Below are positions 42,480 to 61,810 of a stretch of 64,000 nucleotides of DNA, in pieces (position 1 is the first letter of the stretch; each line of letters starts with the position of its first letter). This stretch comes from Sporosarcina sp. FSL W8-0480. Lineage in GTDB: Bacteria > Bacillota > Bacilli > Bacillales_A > Planococcaceae. A program made the position numbers and the translations under genes. Location of the stretch: the NCBI RefSeq assembly GCF_037963765.1, contig NZ_CP150166.1, positions 2,363,501 to 2,427,500 of the forward strand, in the 5' to 3' direction. Below the pieces are notes generated by a model. That model was not told the origin of the DNA, made no database searches, and was given only the letters and a program-made list of their open reading frames with translations.

Positions 42480-42995
42480 TTATTCCTCCCATTCAATCTT
42501 TCCAAGACGTTTGAGTCTGGCCATAATTCTTCTTTCAATCATCCTGTTAAACTTTGTAACAAAACCATCTGAGCTTGCTACAGGAACAACAAGAATCGTA
42601 TGTAGGCCAAATCGTTTGCCACCTAATACATCCGTCATAAGCTGATCTCCCACCATTACGACCTCTTCCTTTTTCAGGCCCATCATGGTAAGTGCCTTTT
42701 TGAAGTTTTTTGCCAAAGGTTTACGGGCATCGCATATGAATGGTGTACCAAGCGGATCACAGAATGTCTGCACACGGGCATGATTATTATTCGAAAGAAT
42801 CGTCACTTGAAGACCCGCGTCTTGCATCATTTTCATCCACTCTGTAATTTCGGGTGTCGCCTCAGGTCGATCCCATTCCACAAGTGTATTATCCAAATCA
42901 GTAATGATTCCTTTGATTCCTTTTTCGACAAGTTTATCCGGTGAAATTTGAAAAATGTCTTTTACATACTCATCCGGTAGAAAGTATTTATACAA
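42480..42995 (-). CDS. yqeG: HAD-superfamily phosphatase YqeG
   Basis: 171-residue HAD (IIIA) phosphatase; the DLDNTLVEW nucleophile motif lies near residue 32 and VVMVGDQLMTDVLGG is motif III/IV. The start is set to TTG at 42995, with ACGGAG 8 bases upstream; it aligns with the family N-terminus (MxKYFLPDEYV). Substrate unknown, but the fixed linkage with yqeH suggests a role near ribosome assembly. First gene of the yqeG-H-aroE-yqeI-nadD-yqeK-rsfS-yqeM cluster. Confidence 0.92.
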   Translation of the reverse strand: MYKYFLPDEYVKDIFQISPDKLVEKGIKGIITDLDNTLVEWDRPEATPEITEWMKMMQDAGLQVTILSNNNHARVQTFCDPLGTPFICDARKPLAKNFKKALTMMGLKKEEVVMVGDQLMTDVLGGKRFGLHTILVVPVASSDGFVTKFNRMIERRIMARLKRLGKIEWEE

Positions 42996-43162
42996 GTTAT
43001 CCACTCCGTTATATCTCCAATTCAAAATTGATTATACCACAACAGAAGCCGACGTCATGCATTGTAAGGGCGACAATTCCTTTTCGAACATTCGCTTCAT
43101 TCTACCGAATTAATACAAGCCGTCATCGCATATGCTGTCATATAGACACAGGAGGTGGACCG

Positions 43163-43864
43163 ATGAGCGGATTTGTTATGACACTCGTCCAACTGTGGGT
43201 CGAAATCCCGGCAATGGTCGGCTATATCCGGGGGCAGGCATTCCGTCGCCCGTTATCCAAAGCGGAAGAAGCGGATTGTTTGATGCGATTGGCAGAAGGT
43301 GATGAGAGCGCAAGAGATGAGCTTATAGAAAGGAATATGCGCCTCGTCGCTCACGTAGTAAAAAAATTCCACCCAAAACATGAACAACTCGACGATTACA
43401 TTTCCATCGGTACAATAGGGCTTATGAAAGCTGTAAACAGTTTTACACTTGACCGTAAAACGAAATTAGCGACATATGCAGCCCGTTGTATTGAAAATGA
43501 AATACTCATGTATCTACGAACCCAGAAAAAAGTACAAAAAGACGTATCGCTTTTTGATCCAATCGGGACAGATAAAGATGGGCAGTCCCTTCAAATAGCA
43601 GATCTTTTGCAAACCGAAGAGGAAGCGCCAATCGAAACCGTCCAACAGAAAGAACTGAAGGAACGGCTTTACCGCCATCTTGGAAAATTGGATGGAAGAG
43701 AGCTTGAAATCATCCAAAGAAGATATGGATTATTGGATGATCAACCGATGACCCAAAAGGACATTGCCCAGCAACTCAATATTTCAAGAAGTTATGTCTC
43801 CAGAATCGAGAAAAGGGCCATCGTCAAATTGTATCAGCTATTTAAGCATGAGTACAACGAATAA
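43163..43864 (+). CDS. sigK: RNA polymerase sporulation sigma factor SigK precursor
   Basis: Late mother-cell sigma factor for coat and cortex genes. 233 residues. An N-terminal hydrophobic pro-sequence (about 1-20, MSGFVMTLVQLWVEIPAMVG) precedes Y21, which aligns with the SpoIVFB cleavage point of B. subtilis pro-sigma-K. Region 2 (RNMRLVAHVVKKF, TYAARCIENEILMYLR) and region 4 (MTQKDIAQQLNISRSYVSRIEKRA) are complete in one frame. AGGAGGTGG precedes the ATG. No skin-type element interrupts it. No clear promoter was assigned. Confidence 0.96.
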   Translation: MSGFVMTLVQLWVEIPAMVGYIRGQAFRRPLSKAEEADCLMRLAEGDESARDELIERNMRLVAHVVKKFHPKHEQLDDYISIGTIGLMKAVNSFTLDRKTKLATYAARCIENEILMYLRTQKKVQKDVSLFDPIGTDKDGQSLQIADLLQTEEEAPIETVQQKELKERLYRHLGKLDGRELEIIQRRYGLLDDQPMTQKDIAQQLNISRSYVSRIEKRAIVKLYQLFKHEYNE

Positions 43865-44045
43865 ACAAAAGCGCAGGGCGCCTGCCAAGTCCCGACAAGC
43901 GGTGGAAGACATGCCGGAAAGGCGCTCTTTGCCTTTTTGGCAAAGGAAGGCAGTCTAAGACCGTCGCTTCCTGCGACAACGACTGCATGACCCGCATCGT
44001 GCGGGCCTAACCGACTCGAAGGACTGGCGCCCGGAGTCTGGACGT
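43865..44045. repeat. GC-rich repeat element after sigK, long copy (~180 bp)
   Basis: Begins ACAAAAGCGCAGGGCGCC and ends GGCGCCCGGAGTCTGGACG. It contains internal stems (for example GACCCGCATCGTGCGGGCC and GCCTTTTTGGCAAAGG). No gene is present in 43865-44170. Part of it may end sigK transcription. Confidence 0.65.
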
Positions 44046-44077
44046 AACAAAAGCGCAGGGCGCTTGGAATCTGGACG
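44046..44077. repeat. Short copy of the same GC-rich repeat (32 bp)
   Basis: AACAAAAGCGCAGGGCGC is repeated exactly here and is joined directly to TTGGAATCTGGACG, the counterpart of the end of the long copy. The middle ~150 bp is missing. Confidence 0.65.
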
Positions 44078-44128
44078 AAATGAAAAGGCGTTTCCTTACA
44101 CAGGGCCCCCGGCCGCGTGTAAGGAAAC
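44078..44128 (-). terminator. Strong terminator after the mtnN-small ORF unit
   Basis: GGCGTTTCCTTACAC pairs perfectly over 15 bp with GTGTAAGGAAACGCC; the minus-strand product is followed by TTTT. The loop is GC-rich. Confidence 0.85.
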
Positions 44129-44170
44129 GCCAATTTAATGCATTCTGTTTTTACATCTCACATTAGGAAT

Positions 44171-44251
44171 TCAGTCTGCACTTACCTCACGAGCGATTAT
44201 AACAGCAAGTACTGTGGATAGAAAAAATACGCCAGCCATTAGATAAAACAT
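44171..44251 (-). CDS. Candidate 26-residue single-pass membrane peptide
   Basis: The ATG at 44251 is 9 bases after AAGGAGG (complement of 44261-44267), a near-consensus Shine-Dalgarno. The peptide starts MFYLMAGVFFLSTVLAVIIA and ends in six polar residues; nearly the whole of it is one transmembrane helix. It lies about 57 bp after mtnN on the same strand and before a strong terminator, so it would be on the mtnN transcript. An alternative ATG seven bases upstream reads a frame of similar length without membrane character and sits too close to the Shine-Dalgarno. I do not recognise a family. Confidence 0.5.
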   Translation of the reverse strand: MFYLMAGVFFLSTVLAVIIAREVSAD

Positions 44252-44308
44252 CTATCATAACCTCCTTATGGACAATAAATACTCTACCTTCATCTTACCA
44301 TATATCAT

Positions 44309-45001
44309 TTATAATTTCGATAAGACATGCATGACAATTTCGGAAGAATGTTTTGCTGCAAGAGGTAGGAATTCATCAAAACTAATTGAAGATTCCTTTC
44401 CAGCAATATCGGATAATGCACGGATTACAACAAAAGGTTTTCCAAATTGGTGGCAAACCTGTGCAACTGCCGCGGCTTCCATTTCAGCAGCAATCATTTC
44501 AGGGAACTGACTTTTCACGAGATTAACTCGTTCACTGTCGCTCATGAATACATCTCCTGAAGCAATCAGTCCTATTGAATGTGAGTGTTCCCCAATTTCC
44601 TCAATAGCTTCCCTTGCAACTTGGACAAGCCTTGAATCCGATTGATAGGACGGTGGCATTCCCGGTACTTGACCGATTTCATAGCCAAATGCAGTTGCAT
44701 CCACATCATGATGTCTTACATCATCCGAGATGACAATTGTCCCCACTTCAAGCGATTCGGCAAATCCGCCTGCGGATCCTGTATTTAGTACTACATCAGG
44801 ATCATATTGCTGAATAAGCAATGTTGTCGCAATCGCCGCATTTACTTTACCAATGCCGCTTTTCACAAGGATGACATCATTTTTGCCAATCTTTCCTTCA
44901 ATGAATTCACAACCAGCAATAACACTCGTGTTCTGAGATTCGACTTTACTCCTTAAGATTTCAACTTCTTCTTCCATTGCACCTATTATTGCTATTTTCA
45001 T
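44309..45001 (-). CDS. mtnN: 5'-Methylthioadenosine/S-adenosylhomocysteine nucleosidase
   Basis: Cleaves adenine from MTA and SAH, recycling by-products of SAM chemistry. 230 residues; begins MKIAIIGAMEEEVEIL with the catalytic glutamate at 12 region; NTGSAGGF and IAAEMEAAAVAQVC (E175-region ribose contact) and ALSDIAG (catalytic Asp) are present. GGAGGG precedes the ATG. The several methyltransferases in the window produce SAH, its substrate. Confidence 0.97.
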   Translation of the reverse strand: MKIAIIGAMEEEVEILRSKVESQNTSVIAGCEFIEGKIGKNDVILVKSGIGKVNAAIATTLLIQQYDPDVVLNTGSAGGFAESLEVGTIVISDDVRHHDVDATAFGYEIGQVPGMPPSYQSDSRLVQVAREAIEEIGEHSHSIGLIASGDVFMSDSERVNLVKSQFPEMIAAEMEAAAVAQVCHQFGKPFVVIRALSDIAGKESSISFDEFLPLAAKHSSEIVMHVLSKL

Positions 45002-45056: not shown

Positions 45057-45761
45057 TCAATATTCAAAGTCCAATGTGTTTAAAATATCCATTTTAACGG
45101 GCTTCCAACCTTGTCCATCCACCCATTCAAGATACACACGAAATTTCTCTGATTTGTCCCTGGTGGAAACGATCCCAATAGATTTTTGGGGGCCACCGCC
45201 ATTTTTAATTTTCCAATAGATCAAAGACTCTACCGGAAACTTTGTAGCATAGGCAATTGCTTCTTTCTTTTCATCCCAATCAACTGACTCATCATTATAA
45301 ATAGAAACATGTTCACCTGTTTGGACAGTTCCAATCGGCTTCCAAGCTGCGTCAACAATAGTCTCTACAACTATTTCCTCATCATTCGGTACAGTAGTTA
45401 CAGTATCTTCACTATCACCTTCATCGTCGTTCTGCCCATTCCCGGAAGTACCTGCACCTGCACTATCAGATCCCCCATCATCCGTTACTTCATCATTCGC
45501 GTTACTATCATCTTTATCGTCAGTCACACTTCCGTCATCAGTATTGGCATCTTCTTCACTAAAATTTTCATCGATGCTTCCTTGTTCATCTTGATTTGCG
45601 ACCTGATCTTTTTTGTCGTCATTGCTGCTCATGAATATATTTGCTCCGACAATCACTATCAAGACCACGACAAGTCCAATCATAATATTTAATAATTGGT
45701 TGCCACGGTTCTTCCTCTTTTTACGGCCTATTCGAGAGTAATTCGAATTATTTCCATTCAT
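45057..45761 (-). CDS. yrrS: YrrS family membrane protein (DUF1510)
   Basis: 234 residues. A short basic cytoplasmic N-terminus (GRKKRKNRGNQ) leads to one transmembrane helix (~24-44), a very acidic Asp/Ser/Asn-rich linker (~48-130) and a C-terminal DUF1510 domain (~135-234, IVDAAWKPIGTVQTGEHVS). In B. subtilis yrrS lies by the PBP gene pbpI and greA; the PBP gene is not present here. Function unknown; topology places the conserved domain outside the membrane. Confidence 0.88.
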   Translation of the reverse strand: MNGNNSNYSRIGRKKRKNRGNQLLNIMIGLVVVLIVIVGANIFMSSNDDKKDQVANQDEQGSIDENFSEEDANTDDGSVTDDKDDSNANDEVTDDGGSDSAGAGTSGNGQNDDEGDSEDTVTTVPNDEEIVVETIVDAAWKPIGTVQTGEHVSIYNDESVDWDEKKEAIAYATKFPVESLIYWKIKNGGGPQKSIGIVSTRDKSEKFRVYLEWVDGQGWKPVKMDILNTLDFEY

Positions 45762-52912: not shown

Positions 52913-53146
52913 AAAAAATCCCCGCCCCTGTACAAGGGACGAAGATTTTTCGTGGTACCACCCTAATTTACCGGTAATAAGACTGACCGGTATCTCAAGA
53001 AGCCTTAACGCGGCTGACGGCAAGGATTAGTTGCTCTCGGGAGTAGCTTTCCGGCAAATGGCCATGGGAATCCTTACAGCCTCGGGATTCCTTTCTGAAC
53101 ATGGTGATAGGCGTACTTTCTCCGTCAACGAATTTATTATGTGATA
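52913..53146 (-). promoter_or_regulatory. T-box riboswitch (alanine) controlling alaS
   Basis: The T-box sequence AGGGTGGTACCACG is the complement of 52951-52964. Stem I has AGTACGC, an apical stem GGAATCCCGAGGCTGTAAGG and, by alignment with known leaders, the specifier GCT (complement of 53045-53047), an alanine codon. The terminator (complement of 52917-52950) ends in six T residues. Uncharged tRNA-Ala should favour read-through. Confidence 0.93.
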
Positions 53147-61615: not shown

Positions 61616-61810
61616 ACGTTAACGAATCCCAAACGTGCCGTCTTTGAAGTATCGTTTTGAACCCGCACTCTGCAGGTGGGTGCCATATCCATTTATTCTG
61701 AAGTCCCTAAAGTTACGGGCGTTCCATCCGAAATGAAATACAAGCTCCCTACGATAAAAATGTTCGGTCAAAACTGATTAACAAATAACGAACACTTCAG
61801 GATTCGTATT
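61616..61810 (-). ncRNA. ssrS: 6S RNA (bsrA/ssrS type)
   Basis: Regulates RNA polymerase by mimicking an open promoter. The aspS-tcdA gap is where B. subtilis carries 6S-1 RNA. Here a good vegetative promoter ends near 61811, and the ~192-nt product would be closed by ACGAATCC (5' end) pairing with GGATTCGT (complement of about 61620-61628). Inner helices include CTGAAGT/ACTTCAG. Assignment rests on locus, length, promoter and terminal stem, not on a covariance search. Confidence 0.7.

Follow-up and report, generated by a model that had tools for sequence, protein, structure and literature searches.

Several kinds of very small protein have been described in Bacilli. SpoVM and CmpA are very short sporulation peptides, YrhC (PF14143) is a small hydrophobic protein of 74–82 aa with two hydrophobic stretches that is encoded behind mtnN or behind its operon, and Prli42 is a stressosome-associated membrane miniprotein with a 31-position model (NF033880). 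The B. subtilis yrzI operon is described as encoding “multiple peptides of unknown function” (PMC10100781). S1025, S1024, S1026 and yrzI are chosen candidates for direct degradation by Rae1 (PMC10632193), and S1025 is called the Rae1 substrate that was characterised first (PMC11780869). Expression cluster C2 (PMC3498285, Table 4) contains yrzI and S1026 together with cotT, yodI and ymaG, and yodI and ymaG are marked sigma-K.

The ORF described here lies behind mtnN in the window, the whole 64,000-nt stretch of Sporosarcina sp. FSL W8-0480 DNA that was analyzed. It and its surroundings comprise the following features:

44171..44251, minus strand: 26-codon ORF for a predicted membrane microprotein, MFYLMAGVFFLSTVLAVIIAREVSAD, with ATG start and TGA stop
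44261..44267, minus strand: Shine-Dalgarno sequence AAGGAGG, 9 nt before the peptide ATG
44083..44131, minus strand: terminator-like hairpin GGCGTTTCCTTACAC...GTGTAAGGAAACGCC followed by TTTT, fold z = −3.89
44309..45001, minus strand: mtnN, 5'-methylthioadenosine/S-adenosylhomocysteine nucleosidase (TIGR01704, 329.8 bits)
45057..45761, minus strand: yrrS-like DUF1510 gene (PF07423, 118 bits), upstream and in the same direction
43172..43864, plus strand: sigK, the convergent neighbour (PRK05803 SigK, 298.4 bits, cut-off 252)
42480..43025, minus strand: yqeG homolog, the next minus-strand gene past sigK

The upstream neighbour of the ORF is mtnN, whose end (44309) is 57 nt away. The sigK assignment scored slightly under the cut-off of a second model (TIGR02846, 287.6 bits against 298.65), and its start codon was our choice within a longer open frame. 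On the plus strand, the reading of 44171–44251 is interrupted by stops. On the minus strand, MFYLMAGVFFLSTVLAVIIAREVSAD is hydrophobic nearly throughout up to R21, which supports the one-helix membrane peptide of the preliminary description, its membrane character being judged by hydropathy alone. The near-consensus, well-spaced Shine-Dalgarno sequence claimed there was also found, and similar sites stand at the same position in the majority of 30 Sporosarcina loci compared by eye. The hairpin (44131–44087) has 16 + 4 pairs and then UUUU. Folding of 121 nt at this site gave −41.7 kcal/mol, a value equaled by 0 of 200 shuffles. The hairpin is strong, as proposed earlier, and lies 39 nt past the peptide stop, so that the “directly downstream” of the preliminary description amounts to some 40 nt. 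The output of a simple terminator scan did not contain this hairpin; in the majority of the same 30 loci a comparable hairpin, GCGTTTCC...GGAAACGC, stands behind the ORF (by eye). We take the hairpin as the probable end of an mtnN-peptide transcript. The peptide appears to have been overlooked, as that description suggested, and is very likely a membrane protein.

To measure selection we used 56 distinct 26-codon sequences from 71 Sporosarcina loci, arranged in 24 disjoint pairs with at least 75% identity. In the true frame pN/pS was 0.162 (114.7 synonymous and 56.3 non-synonymous changes in the 24 pairs), whereas the two remaining sense frames gave 1.22 and 2.53. When the changes were shuffled, 0 of 1000 trials gave a ratio as low, the shuffled mean being 0.666 and the minimum 0.424. 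A low ratio (0.291) was also seen in antisense frame 2, which we attribute to the overlap of third positions. The S. thermotolerans ORF (L002) shows three differences, all at synonymous third positions; mtnN of that species is 89% identical to the window gene, and its sigK match is split into three frameshift-like pieces, perhaps because of sequencing errors, the completeness of that assembly being rated at 83%. The peptide frame is therefore under purifying selection, synonymous change dominating in just the comparison that the preliminary description had put forward as a check. The low pN/pS, together with the fixed place after mtnN, led us to reject a chance ORF. The predicted product fits the general kind of single-pass membrane microproteins in having less than about 50 aa, selection at the protein level and one hydrophobic helix (by hydropathy only).

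The frame is retained in close relatives. A profile matched 62 of 68 Sporosarcina genomes at E ≤ 0.02, and five of the six profile-negative genomes still showed the peptide, leaving G615 alone with none. Where mtnN is close, each of the 16 named Sporosarcina loci has the peptide; it is missing from a metagenome contig labelled Sporosarcina (L121), in which mtnN is 44% identical and differently situated. When the DNA after mtnN was read with a filter for ribosome site and hydropathy, positive ORFs were found in 10 of 18 genomes from other genera of the family (Planococcaceae) and in 37 of 55 further family genomes, and a peptide-like ORF follows mtnN in Lysinibacillus composti (L070) as well. 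With the position-blind profile A2 and a threshold of E ≤ 0.05, 141 of the 200 genomes sampled from the family had a match. The profile gave 138 rows at E ≤ 1e-3, and mtnN was listed for 111 of these: 108 lie 55–909 nt after mtnN on the same strand (median 114.5), and the remaining three, from two g31 genomes, lie elsewhere. Counted by genome, 110 in the family had both a match at E ≤ 1e-3 and a listed mtnN, and 108 of them have the homolog at this distance after mtnN. No peptide was found after mtnN in g31 (0/6), g35 (0/4) or g40 (0/2), nor in the g26 and g30 genomes read; since such lineages keep mtnN, the peptide is dispensable. The genome studied here has one copy in a search at E ≤ 10, a second match being partial and within a 154-aa frame.

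In a class-wide, position-blind search of 398 genomes with profile A4, 12 genomes from beyond the family had a match at E ≤ 1e-3. In nine of them (families f9 and f42) the peptide lies between mtnN and yqeG; because A4 included two Mammaliicoccus rows, these nine matches are blind to place and not wholly independent in sequence. With the window yqeG as query, a homolog was found right behind the peptide in 9/9. In the other three (f37) the peptide lies downstream of yrhC (E from 5.8e-5 to 9.0e-4); G463 and G479 have it some 80 nt away and G416 some 720 nt, homology here being based on 25–30 residues and position. An extra G416 row (E 2.3e-4) falls at another place, and rows outside the family with E from 1e-3 to 0.05 are mostly pieces of long frames. 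In the G463 locus (L240), a CRISPR-like array of TTTCAATTCCTCATAGGTACGATACAAA with spacers adjoins the peptide at about 900–1270. Mammaliicoccus has a version of the peptide between mtnN and yqeG in 4/4 named loci, 35 residues long in the two loci read; none was found in Staphylococcus massiliensis (L116). Matches within 1.2 kb after mtnN occurred in 5 of 57 mostly Halobacillus-type named loci (L072–L128), namely the four of Mammaliicoccus and L073. Oceanobacillus indicireducens (L095) has a 25-aa hydrophobic ORF 30–105 nt after mtnN that overlaps the 3' end of the convergent sigK and does not match the peptide family profile.

The f37 arrangement recurs among genomes with YrhC. Twenty-nine genomes had YrhC over the cut-off, and in 12 of the 28 whose downstream DNA was inspected the peptide follows yrhC. 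It is the last ORF of a yrzI small-ORF cluster in seven genomes, which belong to other families of Bacilli (L235, L250, L252, L256, L255, L258 and L263), in the order yrhC, yrzI (at least one copy), an 18–23-residue ORF, a short basic ORF (6/7) and the membrane peptide. Pfam confirmed YrzI (PF09501) for all three clusters tested out of these seven (54–66 bits). The 18–23-residue ORF, whose product ends in TGDST in three genomes, EKDST or EKDTT in three and YKDTG in one, may, going by its position, be the counterpart of S1025. In L247/L254 and in L259 the peptide stands directly behind yrhC. Where seen, sigK is on the opposite strand in most yrhC-type loci, but L250, L251 and L257 have both genes on one strand; L270 (family f14) has a YrzI-like ORF, identified by eye, and no such peptide. 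The likeness to the yrzI operon consists in the peptide closing a YrzI-initiated cluster. The peptide is distinct from YrzI and from the 18–23-residue ORF behind yrzI; PF09501 matched neither the window peptide nor sets of 33 and 48 family members, and S1024 of B. subtilis is a possible counterpart. It also differs in standing directly behind mtnN in Sporosarcina and between mtnN and yqeG in Mammaliicoccus. The poorly understood yrzI small-peptide cluster is hereby tied to a peptide that is kept in relatives without sporulation genes.

Searches of known families with the window peptide returned no Pfam family, no PHROG and no PDB chain. Alignments of family members reached best E values of 0.012 (Pfam) and 0.0025 (NCBIfam), each involving one or few members, and our literature search found no description of this peptide. 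A phage protein was rejected on the PHROG result, one of two relatives matching weakly (E 0.094). A leader peptide was rejected because the next minus-strand gene lies beyond the terminator and the convergent sigK. Relative to Pfam, NCBIfam, PHROG and PDB as searched, the peptide represents a new family of an already known kind, the membrane microproteins, and it adds a conserved protein family to those in the profile libraries searched.

Conservation within the peptide suggests how it might work. Column entropy along the alignment showed a periodicity of 100 degrees, the strongest of seven angles tried, and 35 of 5000 shuffles, which ignore relatedness, were as strong. The conserved face comprises M5, a small residue at 8, T12, I15, I19 and E22, and the tail past E22 is short and usually acidic. 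We read conservation along one face of a helix as packing against another helix. The explanation we prefer, and to which we give roughly even chances, is that this is a real gene of an undescribed family of 24–35-residue single-pass membrane microproteins encoded behind mtnN (or behind yrhC in other Bacilli families), with an accessory or regulatory role through helix packing or as a homo-oligomer. With mtnN as its steady neighbour, the peptide would likely be co-transcribed with mtnN; its helix would insert in the membrane, and there it might pack against a membrane protein, as an accessory subunit or to regulate it, or associate with itself. A bolder version, possible but tentative, starts from an ancestral Bacilli small-ORF cluster between mtnN (and yrhC) and sigK, of which the peptide would be the most widely retained member. 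It would bind one specific membrane partner and so link either the recycling of methylthioadenosine/SAH or the yrzI peptides with a membrane process common to spore formers and their staphylococcal relatives. The one fixed place of the gene in several culturable genera makes deletion and tagging tests simple.

Among the alternatives, it is unlikely, although much in the family agrees with it, that the peptide serves sporulation, as a mother-cell product with its site of action at spore membranes. The peptide mostly goes with sporulation genes there: SpoIVA is present in 155 of 200 family genomes, and only 10 of the 141 peptide-matching genomes (E ≤ 0.05) come from the six genera that lack it, four of these being from g31, with matches that are either weak or not near mtnN. 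In addition, sigK is the convergent neighbour, yrzI and S1026 share an expression cluster with sigma-K-marked genes (PMC3498285), and Pfam labels YrzI a “probable sporulation protein”. The resemblance to SpoVM and CmpA lies in very short length and nearness to a sporulation gene in spore formers. The difference is that this peptide is also found in Mammaliicoccus, which is not known to sporulate and has it after mtnN in 4/4 named loci, and in genomes without SpoIVA. Five genomes with no SpoIVA match (G067, G071, G118, G146 and G154) have it after mtnN, so that, with Mammaliicoccus, the peptide is not confined to spore formers; the nine f9/f42 genomes have it with yqeG next, and the SpoIVA-bearing g35 genomes lack it after mtnN (0/4). 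The link to sporulation may in part reflect joint loss of the peptide and the sigK region, and the role of the peptide is probably not limited to that process.

Another possibility is that translation of the ORF, and not the peptide, is what counts: ribosomes on it would lead to decay of the mRNA or protect the 3' end of mtnN, on the model of the yrzI operon with its link to Rae1. The seven clusters that end in the peptide and the reports of S1025, S1024, S1026 and yrzI as Rae1 candidates (PMC10632193) and of S1025 as Rae1 substrate (PMC11780869) speak for this. The constraint, however, tracks amino-acid sequence and helix face, the Rae1 substrate is a different ORF, and the window leaves no space for other cluster ORFs in the 57 nt before the peptide or the 39 nt up to the hairpin, which together make an effect on the mRNA improbable. 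Size, hydrophobicity, strong Shine-Dalgarno sequence, strong terminator and convergent gene would also suit a stand-alone hydrophobic type I toxin with an antisense RNA from the sigK side, yet type I toxins are usually patchy in distribution. A single copy in this genome, a fixed place across most of the family, strong purifying selection and a promoter scan without a promoter-like match from sigK to the peptide render a toxin very improbable. We consider descent from Prli42 or YrhC, whether as a paralog or as a remnant, least probable of all. Prli42 shares its size class and single helix, and weak matches exist (9.7 bits and E 0.73 for the window peptide against a cut-off of 27.5; 4/48 and 3/33 family members, best E 0.011), but a full Prli42 gene lies elsewhere in this genome (55.8 bits, G000:C1:2286161-2286253), and on this and the sub-cut-off score Prli42 was rejected. 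YrhC occupies the same slot after mtnN, before a sigK-like ORF identified by eye, in Halobacillus and relatives. Nonetheless YrhC and the peptide are encoded by distinct genes wherever both occur, in f37 and elsewhere, and comparison of the peptide and YrhC profiles gave a probability of 0.2%, although 26 columns have little power; a shortened YrhC was rejected on these grounds.

RNA elements were also present in the window. Rfam placed a Bacillaceae-1 RNA (RF01690) at 43939–44005 on the plus strand (73.3 bits, gathering 35), with sigK on one side and the terminator of the peptide on the other. It is flanked by the 15-mer AAAAGCGCAGGGCGC, of which the window holds exactly two copies (43867–43881 and 44049–44063, plus strand), perhaps the borders of an inserted or repeated element. 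Farther away, Rfam identified a T-box leader at 52932–53137 and a 6S RNA at 61622–61806, both on the minus strand.
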